Origin: Gammaproteobacteria bacterium
Lineage (GTDB): Bacteria; Pseudomonadota; Gammaproteobacteria; Ga0077536
Reading direction: 5' to 3'
Length of the DNA stretch: 64,000 bases
Assembly (NCBI GenBank): GCA_009692365.1
Contig: SHZJ01000004.1
Coordinates: 62,001-126,000 of the forward strand
Shown here: positions 26,670 to 32,398 of the stretch, piece after piece
Numbering within the stretch: position 1 is the stretch's first letter
Layout of the letters: every line of letters starts with the position of its first letter
Notes under the pieces: generated by a model
The model's input: the letters and a program-made list of their open reading frames with translations, nothing else
The model's database searches: none
Told to the model about the DNA's origin: nothing
Made by a program: the position numbers and the translations under genes

Positions 26670-27720
26670 TCACCAACCAAGCAGAAAACGGCTGCGACTT
26701 TTTAAGCCTAGTTTAATCAGCTGCGCCAGCAAGATGCTCAGGGCTAATACCGTGGGTGCTGTCAGCACGAAACTAAAAAAGCCTGGCAGCACTTGGGCCG
26801 CATTCAGCACGCCGCTCCGCTTAAGCAAGACCAACACCCAAGGGTGCAGAAAATAGATAGCGAAGCTCAGCGTGGCAAGATAATCTAAGCCCGCAATATG
26901 GCGTTGTTCGTAGCGCTTGAGCACAGACAACGCAAACAAACACAGGACTAGTTTCTGGACGAGGATAAGGTCGATGCCAGCAAACGAAAATATTGAGTGT
27001 TTGTGAAAATTGCCAAAGCCGGGTTCCAGGATGGCTTGCCCCACGGCCAGTGCGAATACCCCCAGCCCGAGTGCTACCGTTTTGTTCTCGAGGAATTTAA
27101 ACAGCCGCACTCGCGCGGCCGAACACATAATGCCGGCCAGGTAAGCCGGCAAAAAATAAATCACCGAATGCACGGGTGAAAAATTGCCCGTGGGCCGCCT
27201 TGCCAGCAGCGCCAACCCCAGAAAACTTACGAAAAATAGCCAGTTGTGTGCGGCGCGGGAGGGTTGTCTGCCAGACACACAGCGGTGCCAGAAAAAAAAT
27301 TATCCTGATAAAAGTGACGTACCAGTAACCCCTAAAAAGCTCGCCGGTCCACAGGCGGCGCGCGGCCAGCGCCAGATATTCTGCCCAGCCCGCCGCCCAA
27401 CTGGCCGCCAGCGCTTGGTTGCCGTCGCTGGTGCCGGGCTGCGCGGTAAATAACAGGAGGCCGGCCAGAGACAGGATTAAGTACGGCCCGAGAACGTATT
27501 TTATTTTCTGGCTGATAAACCGCGCATGGTCGAATTGGCGGGCATTCAAATGATGAAAAAGAAATCCTGAGATAAAAACAAACAGCGCCGACCCACCCTT
27601 AATGAGGTTGGCAAGGATTTTCTCGCCCACGGTGTCGATATGCCAGAAAGCATAAGAATGGCCGGCCACTATCAGGAGGATTGCTACCCCTCTAAAATAA
27701 TTTAGCGAATTAATTTGCAC
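26670..27720 (-). pseudogene. acyltransferase 3 (OafA-like) gene split by a frameshift
   Basis: Two overlapping minus-strand frames together make one polytopic acyltransferase-3 protein, a membrane enzyme that O-acylates surface glycans. The N-terminal part (from GTG 27720; an upstream TTG at 27837 is less likely) has LNYFRGVAILLIVAGHSYAFW with the essential Arg and His, then GSALFVFISGFLF and GYWYVTFIRIIFFLAPL. The C-terminal part resumes in another frame at about 27278 (RAAHNWLFFVSFLGLALL) and ends YFLHPWVLVLL. The frame changes at about 27250-27275. This is either a real lesion, recoding, or a base-calling error. Composition is more AT-rich than its neighbours, as often in surface-glycan genes. 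Confidence 0.75.
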
Positions 27721-28079
27721 GGCCTGGGTGCTGGCTTCAAGGTTTGGGCTGCGTCGAATAACTCGGCGACGGTCGGTGTTGGCGTGTCGCCCGGTCGTGG
27801 CCGGGCCCGCCGCCGCACCGCCAGCCAGGCGCGGCAATGATGCGCGGCGGTTAAGCGCCCTCGCGGCGCCGCCGTTCCGGGTTGGTTGGGGTTTTTCAGC
27901 CTACTGAAGTCGAGCGGGGTTGGGCGCCAGTCATCGTGGCGTCAACAATAGCGCACCCGCAGCCCAAATGGGGGCCGCCGGCGAGCAGGAACCGGGCGGG
28001 GCAAAAAGACAGGACTGCAGGTCAACGGGCCGTTTATAGTTCCCCTAGACAACGCTCGGGGTCGGGCGGGAGGCTGAAA

Positions 28080-30110
28080 ATGAAGAGGCTTGAGGAAACG
28101 CAAGAGGTTTTTGGCCCGCGCGCGCAGCGCACCGGGGGGCGCCTGTGGGGGCTGTCGCGGCGGGGCTGGCTGTTCATGATCTTGCTGGCGCTGAGCGCGA
28201 CGGGTGGGCTGGGGTTCACCTTTGCGCGCGCGCCGGTGTATCGCAGTTCGGCAACCCTGCTGGTGGAGCCGGCGCGCAATCGCGCGGACTCCCTGCGCTC
28301 GCAGGACGACCAGAACGGTTTCCTCAGTGCGCCGCCGGACAACCTACAGGCGCTGGCCACTGAACGACAGCGCTTTTTGAGCCCCGTGGTGGTGGCGCAG
28401 GTGGCCCAGCAATTCACGGCGGAATTACGCGCGCTGGGCGCCGAATTGAGCCCCGAGGCCGGCTTGCAGGCCATGCTCAACGTCGAATATGACGCCGCCA
28501 CCAACCTGATACAAGTGGGGCTGGACGGGGCAAACCCGGCCCTGCAACAGCGCCTATTGGTCGCTTGGTTAGCAGCCTATGAGGTGGCGCGCACGGTCTC
28601 GAACACCACGACGCACAGCACGACTGGGGCGGGGTTGCAGCTTGAGCTACAGCAACTCGAGGCGCGCATTGCGACCCAACGTAGCGCGCTCGACGCCTAC
28701 CGGGAGCGCCACGGGATTGTCTCGAGCGACCGCACCGAGAACCGCGAAGCGGCGAAGTTACGGGGCCTGAATGACTCGCTCAACACCGCTGAGGAAGAAG
28801 AATTAAAAGCGACGGCCTATCTGGCCGCCGTCACGCGGGCGATTGAGCTCGGCGAGCCGGTGACCCAAGACCGCGACCGCGCCGCGCTTGAGCGCTTGAC
28901 CGAGCGCATCGCGGTGCTGCGCGATCAGGTGCGCGCCAACGCCGATCGCTACACCGATAAATTTGCCCAGATCGCGCCGGAAATTATGGATTCGCAAAAG
29001 GCGCTAGCGCAGGCCGAACGTGACCTCGCCGCCCAGCAAGAAACCGCGACCCGGGAGGTGCGCAGCCAGGCGCAAACGCAGTTGGCCAGCGTGCGTAGCC
29101 ACAAGGCTTCGTTGCTCGTGGAACAAGCGGCGCTGCGGGGTGCGCTGACCCGCTTTGCGCAGCACTTCGAGGCATTCACCCTGCAGCAAGAGCAACTGCT
29201 GGATCTCGAAGCGCAGGCTAAGCCGCTGCGCGAACGGCTGGTTCAAACCGAAGTAGCCGGTGCTGAATTGCTACCCACCGTCAGTGTGCTGTCGCCCCCC
29301 GACCTGCCGTTGCAGTCCAGTCGGCCGGACTATGGGCGAGATGCCGCGATCAGCGTCGCCGGCGCCTTTGCCTTCGCCCTGCTGGGGGTGTGGCTGACGG
29401 AGTTTCTGAGTCGACGGGCGCTGGCCGAGCCCAGTGCGAACGAGGCGCCGCCGGTGGTCTATGCGGCGAATCCCCCAACGGTGTGGCCCGTGCTGTCGCC
29501 GCCCGCCCCGAATGCCTACGCGCAGGCGGCCCCAGGGACGTTGGCGTTGCCACCCGCCGCGGCGGGGCTGCCGCGCGAACTGCTGCCGGCCGAGGTGCGG
29601 GCGCTGCTGGCTACCGCCGACGACCCCACCAAGCTGATGATCGCGATGCTGATGAGCGGCGTGGACGGTGTGGAGTTAGGCCAGTTTGAGTGGGCCAACG
29701 CGCGTGCTGACGGCGTGCTGCAGGTTGGTATGCCACCGCGTGAGGTGCGCTTAAATGCGCCTTATGCGGCGCTTTTGGGTCGCCTTGCGCAGGAGGATGC
29801 CGCCTCGGGTGGCGTGGTGGTGCCCGGTTTGACGCGCGCGCGCGACCCCACCGAACTCTCAGCCGTGTTGCTGTACCTCGCCCATGACGCCGGGCTTGCG
29901 CACCCGGAGGAAATCACCTTGGAGGCCCTGCGGCATACCTATTTTGCGTTTCTTGTACGCCAAGGGTTAAAGCTCGGCGAGTTGCCGCGGCTGGGGGGGC
30001 CGCTCGCGCCCGGCGTGCTGGCCAGCTACGCGCGCTACTCGCCCCCCGGCGTGGCGCTCGCGCTGGAAGAGGTACCTCTAGACTATCCGGGGTTGACGGC
30101 GGCGGCGTGA
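28080..30110 (+). CDS. Wzz/GumC-like chain-length protein fused to a degenerate tyrosine-recombinase domain
   Basis: A 676-residue protein. TM1 is at about 29-49. A periplasmic Wzz-type part follows, with the conserved YRSSATLLVEP and coiled coils near 185-250 and 300-390. TM2 is at about 421-441 and a Pro/Ala-rich linker at 447-498. The cytoplasmic tail, 499-660, aligns with the catalytic domain of XerD-like recombinases: LLPAEVRALLATAD, GVDGVELGQFEW for GLR-x-SEL-x-x-L, EALRHTYFAFLVRQG for H-x-LRH-x-FATHL, RLGGP for LLGH, and Tyr650. ArgI is Asp529, the first His is Glu615, and the H/W is Gly640, so strand exchange is unlikely. A BY-kinase usually occupies this position. GGGAGG lies about 7 bp before ATG 28080. 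Confidence 0.75.
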   Translation: MKRLEETQEVFGPRAQRTGGRLWGLSRRGWLFMILLALSATGGLGFTFARAPVYRSSATLLVEPARNRADSLRSQDDQNGFLSAPPDNLQALATERQRFLSPVVVAQVAQQFTAELRALGAELSPEAGLQAMLNVEYDAATNLIQVGLDGANPALQQRLLVAWLAAYEVARTVSNTTTHSTTGAGLQLELQQLEARIATQRSALDAYRERHGIVSSDRTENREAAKLRGLNDSLNTAEEEELKATAYLAAVTRAIELGEPVTQDRDRAALERLTERIAVLRDQVRANADRYTDKFAQIAPEIMDSQKALAQAERDLAAQQETATREVRSQAQTQLASVRSHKASLLVEQAALRGALTRFAQHFEAFTLQQEQLLDLEAQAKPLRERLVQTEVAGAELLPTVSVLSPPDLPLQSSRPDYGRDAAISVAGAFAFALLGVWLTEFLSRRALAEPSANEAPPVVYAANPPTVWPVLSPPAPNAYAQAAPGTLALPPAAAGLPRELLPAEVRALLATADDPTKLMIAMLMSGVDGVELGQFEWANARADGVLQVGMPPREVRLNAPYAALLGRLAQEDAASGGVVVPGLTRARDPTELSAVLLYLAHDAGLAHPEEITLEALRHTYFAFLVRQGLKLGELPRLGGPLAPGVLASYARYSPPGVALALEEVPLDYPGLTAAA

Positions 30111-30841
30111 CGGTGCGCCGGCGACGTATTTTTCGGCTCCGGGAGCGCTGCTGTTATCGCCGCTGGGGGCGGGCTGGCTGCGGGCGGCACGGAGCCGGTT
30201 TTGGCGGCCGTGGCCGACGCTTATCTAGGCTGACGCCGGAGCCGGCGAGGCCACTCTAGCGCTCGCCGTGGTGGGCTCAGTAAACCCCCATCCGCAAACC
30301 CCTGACTGCGTGCGATGGTGCGGCCTTGGTGGTGGTTCGGCATCGCAGTTCTCGCCGTCAAGGTTTTTGCGGAGCACCGTGTCCGTGAGCCCACCGCTCG
30401 GTGGCCGCAGCAGCTTGCGCTGACGGCGCGGGCCGCGCCGCTGGCGGCCCCCCCAGGCCCGCGGCGAGCCGCCGCCACGCCCTTGGCGGGTCCCCGGCGG
30501 CGGCGCCCAGCCACCCCCAACGCACCCGCGTGCCCGCCCGTGCCATCCATGCGCGGCCGACCGACGTACCGAGCTCATGTTGACGACCGTTAGTGCCCGC
30601 CGTGCCGCGCGCGCCGCGCGCCGTCCAAGCTCCGTGCGGGGGACTGGCCGGCGCACCGAGGGCAAGCGGCAGTCCCCGCTGCCGGGCCGGGCGCGACCCG
30701 GGGCACTGACGTCGCGCCCGCGGCGCCCCACCGCCCAGCGCCCCACCGCGGCGCACGCACCGGCCGCCGTGACTAAACCGGTCCCCCAGGCTGGTGCGCA
30801 ACCCGTGGTCGCGCGCGCCTGGCCCACCCCGGCGCCTGCGC
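30111..30841. other. 731-bp GC-rich gap without a supported gene
   Basis: Long open frames exist on both strands, but they are Arg/Pro/Ala-rich and typical of random GC-rich DNA. The one possible gene is 30315-30593 (+). Its N-terminus (RPWWWFGIAVLAVKVFA) could be a membrane anchor ahead of a Pro/Arg-rich tail, but it has no ribosome site or family match. No terminator hairpin with a T-run was seen after the Wzz-like gene. Confidence 0.45.
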
Positions 30842-32398
30842 ATGGCGCGCGCTAAAGGTCTGCGCCGGCTCGTTCTGGTGCTGGGCGACCAGCTGAACCT
30901 CGATGCGGCCGCTTTCGATGGCTTCGATGCCGCGCAAGACGCCGTGTGGATGGCCGAAGTGGCGGCAGAATCCACCCACGTGACGGCGTCTAAACCGCGC
31001 ACGGCGATGTTCTTGGCGGCCATGCGCCATGCCGCGCTGGCGCTGCGGGCGAAGGGGATCACGCTGCACTATACCCGGCTGGAGGATGCTGCCAATCGGG
31101 GTTCGCTGGCGGGCGAACTGGCAGCCGCCATCGAACGGTGCTCGCCCCAGTGCTTGGTCATGACCGAGCCCGGTGATTGGCGGGTGCGCACCGCCCTGGA
31201 AGGGGTGGCTGCGGCCGCCGGCTGTCCTCTGGAAATTCGCACTGACCGCTATTTTTTTAGCACCCTCGCAGACTTCGCCGCCCACGCGCACGGCCGCAAG
31301 CAGCTGCGTATGGAGTATTTTTATCGCGCGCTGCGCAAGCGTCATCAGGTGTTGATGGAGGGGGATCAGCCCCTTGGCGGGAGGTGGAATTTCGACGCCG
31401 AAAATCGCCAAGCCTTTGGCCGGACGGGCCCTCAGGGGGTGCCGGCGCGGGCCACCTTTGCGCCCGATGACGTGACCCGTGAGGTGCTGGCGCTGGTCGA
31501 CACGCACTTTGCCGACCATCCCGGCAGCCTGACCTCGTTTGCTTGGCCGGTGACCCGGGTCGCGGCACTCGAGGCTCTGCGGAGTTTTATCGCTGAGCGG
31601 CTGCCGCAGTTCGGCCGTTGGCAGGATGCGCTGTGGCCGGCAGAACCGTGGCTGTGGCACGCGCATTTATCTGCCGCCCTCAATTTGAAGTCGCTCAGTC
31701 CGCAGGAAGTGGTGGCGGCGGCCGTCGCGGCGCAGCGCGCGGGCCACGTGCCGCTGGCGAGCGTCGCGGGCTTTATCCGGCAGATTTTAGGCTGGCGCGA
31801 ATATGTGCGCGGCGTCTATTGGACCCAGATGCCGGGCTATCAGGCGCACAACGCGCTGGGCGCGACGGTGCCACTGCCGGAGTTTTACTGGACCGGGGAC
31901 ACCCCGCTGGTGTGTCTGGCCGACGCGCTCCAGCAGACCCTGGCGCACGGCTACGCCCACCACATTCAGCGCCTCATGGTAACCGGGCTGTACGCGCTGC
32001 TGTTGGGGGTGGCGCCGCAGGCCGTGCACGCGTGGTATCTCGGGGTGTATGTGGATGCAGTGGAGTGGGTGGAGTTGCCCAATACGCTCGGCATGAGCCA
32101 GGCCGCGGACGGTGGGCTGCTCGCCAGTAAGCCCTATATCGCCAGCGGCAAATATATCGAACGCATGAGCGGCGGCAGCCTGTGTGCGCGCTGTCGCTAC
32201 CAACCAGCGCTGCGCAGCGGCCCGGCGGCGTGCCCGTTCACCACCCTGTACTGGGATTTTCTGCTGCGCCACACCGCCTTACTGGCCGCCAATCCGCGCA
32301 CGGCGCTGCAGGTCAAGAATCTGGCCCGCCTCGGCGACGCGGAGCGCGCGGCGATTAGCGCACAGGCCGCCGTCATTCGCAGCGGTGACCTGCCCTAA
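30842..32398 (+). CDS. phrB: FeS-containing bacterial cryptochrome/(6-4) photolyase (PhrB-type)
   Basis: Flavoprotein that uses light to repair UV photoproducts, of the deoxyribodipyrimidine photolyase-related (FeS-BCP) group. The 518 residues include the N-terminal Rossmann part (LRRLVLVLGDQLN) and the helical FAD domain (GFIRQILGWREYVRGVYW, NTLGMSQAADGGLLASKPY). Four cysteines (Cys358, Cys448, Cys451, Cys464) have nearly the same spacing as the 4Fe-4S ligands of Agrobacterium PhrB. This group also binds a lumazine-type antenna. The start ATG 30842 is chosen because MARAKGLRRLVLVLGDQLN begins as the family does; the ribosome site is poor. It appears monocistronic. Confidence 0.9.
   Translation: MARAKGLRRLVLVLGDQLNLDAAAFDGFDAAQDAVWMAEVAAESTHVTASKPRTAMFLAAMRHAALALRAKGITLHYTRLEDAANRGSLAGELAAAIERCSPQCLVMTEPGDWRVRTALEGVAAAAGCPLEIRTDRYFFSTLADFAAHAHGRKQLRMEYFYRALRKRHQVLMEGDQPLGGRWNFDAENRQAFGRTGPQGVPARATFAPDDVTREVLALVDTHFADHPGSLTSFAWPVTRVAALEALRSFIAERLPQFGRWQDALWPAEPWLWHAHLSAALNLKSLSPQEVVAAAVAAQRAGHVPLASVAGFIRQILGWREYVRGVYWTQMPGYQAHNALGATVPLPEFYWTGDTPLVCLADALQQTLAHGYAHHIQRLMVTGLYALLLGVAPQAVHAWYLGVYVDAVEWVELPNTLGMSQAADGGLLASKPYIASGKYIERMSGGSLCARCRYQPALRSGPAACPFTTLYWDFLLRHTALLAANPRTALQVKNLARLGDAERAAISAQAAVIRSGDLP

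Follow-up and report, generated by a model that had tools for sequence, protein, structure and literature searches.

What would a polysaccharide chain-length protein do with a domain that resembles a DNA recombinase? The question is raised by one open frame in the 64,000-nucleotide stretch of gammaproteobacterial DNA analyzed here (the window), which a sequence-only reading had described as a Wzz-like co-polymerase (PCP) with a degenerate tyrosine-recombinase tail, at the position where related proteins carry a BY-kinase. Sequence profiles and structure prediction bear out the first part of that description, and BY-kinases are indeed present in the nearest relatives of the PCP part (TIGR01007, E 1e-43 to 1e-51). 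The anatomy is close to certain: a two-TM, PCP-2-like co-polymerase with a dead tyrosine-recombinase catalytic domain at the BY-kinase position. Its features, all on the forward strand, are listed below.

28080..30110, forward strand: coding sequence of the fusion protein, an open frame of 676 aa plus stop, with an ATG start common to the close homologues L002 and L003
28158..28226, forward strand: TM1, residues 27-49 (AlphaFold2, AF2, helix H27-49; Pfam Wzz at 25-111)
28227..29330, forward strand: periplasmic PCP domain, residues 50-417, an alpha/beta base with long coiled-coil helices (family and fold matches)
29331..29411, forward strand: TM2, residues 418-444 (AF2 helix H418-444), with a conserved P..Y.RD motif at its start
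29412..29564, forward strand: Pro/Ala-rich disordered linker, residues 445-495 (pLDDT<50 at 446-494), where most pairs show the protein's top dN/dS
29565..30107, forward strand: cytoplasmic pseudo-tyrosine-recombinase domain, residues 496-676 (181 aa; profile, AF2 fold, and relatives)
29664..29666, forward strand: ArgI position, Asp529 (Arg in 0/50 members)
29922..29924, forward strand: HisII position, Glu615 (His in 0/50 members)
29931..29936, forward strand: ArgII, Arg618, and the next residue, His619, both kept (48/50 and 43/50 members)
30000..30002, forward strand: H/W position, Pro641 (His in 4/50 members)
30027..30029, forward strand: nucleophile-equivalent Tyr650, kept (47/50 members)

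The full-length AF2 model, which is of lower confidence (overall pTM 0.36), places TM1, long periplasmic helices, TM2, a disordered linker, and a folded tail in that order. The N-terminal part belongs with the Wzz/PCP proteins, having a Wzz domain between two TM helices and a periplasmic coiled coil. Residues 25-111 match Pfam Wzz above its curated cut-off (E 1.1e-7), and the best Foldseek matches of the whole model are Wzc (E 6.8e-9), KpsE, and WzzE. Residues 26-381 also match the XrtA-system chain-length model TIGR03007 weakly (E 1.2e-9), but with 37 bits for the window protein and at most 63 bits for the scanned relatives, against a curated cut-off of 278.85 bits, these proteins fall outside that family. 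They resemble PCP-2a or Wzc-type proteins with a BY-kinase (TIGR01005/TIGR01007; EpsF TIGR03017; XrtA TIGR03007) in their two TM helices, Wzz domain, long periplasmic coiled coil, and cytoplasmic domain after TM2. In the fusion, however, that last domain has a tyrosine-recombinase fold, and the BY-kinase models TIGR01007, TIGR03018, and EpsG find no match in it, unlike in L072-L075, which places the protein outside PCP-2a. A BY-kinase was rejected as the identity of the tail on the same two grounds, the fold and the lack of a model match.

The homology of the tail is easily missed. Scanned as a single sequence against Pfam, PHROG, and NCBIfam, the window tail matches no recombinase family. The profile search that had been proposed as a check succeeded once seven homologous tails were combined: against the PDB, the matches at E<0.02 were integrases and Xer proteins only (best 3nkh, 1.6e-5; P2 Int, 8.5e-5; XerA, 1.6e-3). 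Scanned singly, 8 of 16 member tails match PF00589 (Phage_integrase) at E up to 0.1, with a best E of 2.2e-7, and the remaining half give no recombinase match. In two full-length proteins (L020 and L021), the tail matches the XerA model NF040815 (E 2e-7 and 9e-7), while the N-terminal part matches PCP models. Structure prediction confirmed the fold. The AF2 model of the tail (pLDDT 86.7, pTM 0.83) has tyrosine recombinases as all of its best 50 Foldseek matches (XerA 5hxy, E 8.0e-6, TM 0.70), and structural realignment gives Z 16.0 to the archaeal Xer proteins 4a8e and 5hxy. In both fold and homology, the tail is a catalytic domain of the tyrosine recombinase superfamily; it runs from about residue 497 to 676, and not from 499 to 660 as first proposed. 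Since existing libraries name no such family and half of the scanned tails give no recombinase match, the tail probably goes unannotated.

An alignment of 50 distinct family members shows what has become of the active site. Asp529 and Glu615 had been correctly identified as the lost ArgI and HisII, and Arg618 and His619 as kept; across the family, ArgI is mostly replaced by Thr or Ser. The third proposed loss, at the H/W site, stands in that the site is not His, but its position is better taken as Pro641 than as Gly640, which is the Gly of an 'LGH' motif invariant in all 50 members. Similarly, of the two candidates for the nucleophile, Tyr650 is supported, and Tyr653 is not (Tyr in 23/50). The family tolerates loss of the His in the ArgII motif, whereas loss of the Arg is very rare. 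Eighteen fusions were aligned with four genuine recombinases, and in every fusion the beta-turn carrying the catalytic Lys is shortened or deleted. With ArgI and HisII lost and the Lys turn shortened, recombination is not expected. The tail shares its fold (Z 16 to XerA) and catalytic-domain sequence profile with XerA/XerC/XerD and the integron integrases; lacking ArgI and HisII, and with them the full R-K-H-R-H/W-Y set, as well as the core-binding domain, it is not a recombinase. One member (L060, 8386-10386, genome G355) has LRQT for LRHT at the ArgII motif.

If the tail does not recombine DNA, what might it do beneath the membrane? Tyrosine recombinases such as Cre and Xer assemble into rings in which each subunit hands a C-terminal segment to its neighbor. 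We propose that the dead recombinase tail stands in for the BY-kinase and serves beneath the membrane as a scaffold that would control assembly of the PCP ring without phosphorylation. It could hold that ring together, or it could recruit a cytoplasmic component of the polysaccharide synthesis machinery. The ring-forming exchange of C-terminal tails would then substitute for the neighbor-to-neighbor tail contact of the Wzc octamer, where the C-terminal tail reaches the neighbor's active site and holds the cytoplasmic kinase ring, and phosphorylation breaks the octamer (PMC8285477). We give the scaffold a probability of about 0.5. There is a partial precedent in Myxococcus, where the pseudokinase EcpK has been proposed as a phosphorylation-independent PCP scaffold (PMC12004946). 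The EpsV-EcpK and HfsA-HfsB systems (PCP-2 with a BY pseudokinase) resemble the fusion in this proposed control by a dead cytoplasmic domain, but EcpK, which has a kinase fold, is not part of the PCP chain, whereas the fusion carries a recombinase fold in cis.

A pure scaffold does not explain why ArgII and the Tyr are kept, for which a phosphate-ligand pocket and a structural role are both possible. The residual ArgII-His-Tyr pocket might bind a phosphorylated ligand, such as a lipid-linked sugar, a nucleotide, or a phosphotyrosine, with the tail acting as a sensor, and Tyr650 could be a substrate for a BY-kinase acting in trans. Retention of Arg618 (48/50), His619 (43/50), Tyr650 (47/50), and Gly640 (50/50) despite the loss of ArgI and HisII speaks for such a pocket. 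However, the kept residues may be structural, and none of the 32 loci links a partner kinase to the gene; we regard a sensor as unlikely.

The genomic setting bears on whether the fusion works in polysaccharide production at all. It is a solitary gene with no conserved neighbor or operon partner across the 32 loci, and its host genomes have other OPX or polysaccharide export genes elsewhere, several with a second Wzz gene. Such a protein could be an orphan of the PCP fold that serves some envelope process other than polysaccharide polymerization or export. Against this stand the PCP profile and fold matches, as well as the polysaccharide genes beside the fusion in Methylomicrobium (L019), where it abuts asnB-galE-GT-GT-asnB (asparagine synthases, an epimerase, and two glycosyltransferases), and near it in L011 (a polysaccharide deacetylase and a glycosyltransferase). 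Co-occurrence with exosortase and OPX also argues against an orphan. In the order of G282 (methanotroph-like), exosortase was found in 36/37 genomes with the fusion and in 49/84 without it (p 3e-6); counted by genus, the figures are 17/17 versus 12/19 (p 0.008). These statistics ignore phylogeny. The OPX family is present in 36/37 fusion genomes of that order and 64/84 others. Within the window's own order, 6/7 fusion genomes have exosortase. Overall, two genomes with the fusion, G818 and G007, have no detected exosortase. The fusion therefore co-occurs with exosortase-type exopolysaccharide systems, though exosortase is also common in genomes without it. An envelope role apart from polysaccharides seems improbable to us, and we infer a polysaccharide role for the fusion as an extra PCP in its hosts.

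The flanking genes of the window add some observations of their own. Upstream of the fusion and divergent from it lies an acyltransferase-3 gene (26670-27837, reverse strand) made of two overlapping frames that cover profile positions 152-325 and 2-148 of Acyl_transf_3; it looks frameshifted, and a relative (L009, 4777-5847) has a longer single Acyl_transf_3 frame. After the fusion comes a gene for a deoxyribodipyrimidine photolyase-related protein (DPRP; 30794-32398, forward strand), with no functional link seen.

DNA binding had also been suggested for the tail, and as a membrane-tethered module it might anchor the chromosome or regulate transcription from the membrane. In tyrosine recombinases, an N-terminal core-binding domain completes the DNA clamp. 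None precedes the tail in the full-length model, where TM2 and the disordered linker come before the domain. The tails are also acidic, with a median pI of 5.3 and a median net charge of -5 (range -12 to +1); in the catalytic domains of four genuine recombinases, the pI is 8.9-10.4 and the net charge +2 to +13. The Lys turn of the tail is also shortened. DNA-binding pseudo-recombinases do exist: MrpR/YopR of SPbeta and SroF (PMC10516654) are among the fold matches of the tail, and MrpR, like the fusion, has lost ArgI and HisII and kept the Tyr; in the fusion, the Tyr and ArgII are both kept. MrpR, however, is a soluble two-domain repressor, whereas the fusion has the catalytic domain only, acidic and attached to the membrane. 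Because the tail is acidic and lacks a core-binding domain, DNA binding is quite unlikely, and the tail is probably both catalytically dead and not DNA-binding. These same properties, together with the fact that MrpR retains both domains, would favor a protein-protein role, and binding a partner or acting as a regulator at the membrane is a better guess than DNA binding.

The search for other fusions of this kind yielded 50 distinct tails, all with the PCP part in the same frame. In a tree with 26 recombinases, the fusion tails form one clade (support 99/95; some rows carry a long-branch warning). Full-length homologues are present in the window's genus and family and further afield in Methylobacter, Methylomicrobium, Methylococcaceae, Lamprocystis, other Chromatiaceae, Nitrosospira, and a MAG labelled Nitrospirae. 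The order of G282 has the fusion in 37/121 genomes and 17/36 genera, as a single copy in each genome. The two parts travel together: among the 369 genomes of the class, high scores for the PCP part and for the tail fall in the same 6, and no genome has a high score for just one of them. No standalone close tail was found in those genomes (scores fall from 168 to 61 bits), and no PCP relative lacking the tail yet close in score was found in the class (509 to 110 bits). One further fusion has a score of 108 bits. By sequence, the fusion is a discrete family of single origin. The tail is under purifying selection and is not decaying, because its pairwise dN/dS of 0.11-0.34 is near that of the PCP part (0.09-0.23; linker, 0.10-0.79). 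A tail that is a neutral relic, as loss of the active site in all 50 members might suggest, or a frame joined by sequencing or assembly error is refuted by the single clade of 50 distinct fusions, all in frame, and by these dN/dS values. Two records deserve a remark. The fusion of genome G002 lies in two frames (L012, 4697-5791 and 5136-6719) because of a frameshift in the N-terminal PCP part, either an assembly error or a real mutation. The record of L009 is titled Klebsiella pneumoniae, but its fusion is 85% identical to the window's and its DNA fits the window's genus; the label looks wrong.

We found no description of a Wzz-recombinase or Wzz-integrase fusion in the open literature, subscription journals being outside the search. 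If the scaffold is correct, the family would represent a further kind of PCP-2, controlled by a fused inactive tyrosine-recombinase domain in place of a BY-kinase (in cis or in trans) or a pseudokinase, with the ring-forming habit of recombinases used to assemble or gate a polysaccharide machine without phosphorylation; the chances of this are, in our view, about even. A DNA recombinase fold would then have been taken into the service of the cell envelope, with no DNA involved, and the family would offer a natural test of whether a PCP depends on its cytoplasmic domain for catalysis or simply for assembly. The family is present in cultivated bacteria, namely Lamprocystis purpurea, Nitrosospira, and Methylomicrobium, and is testable there.
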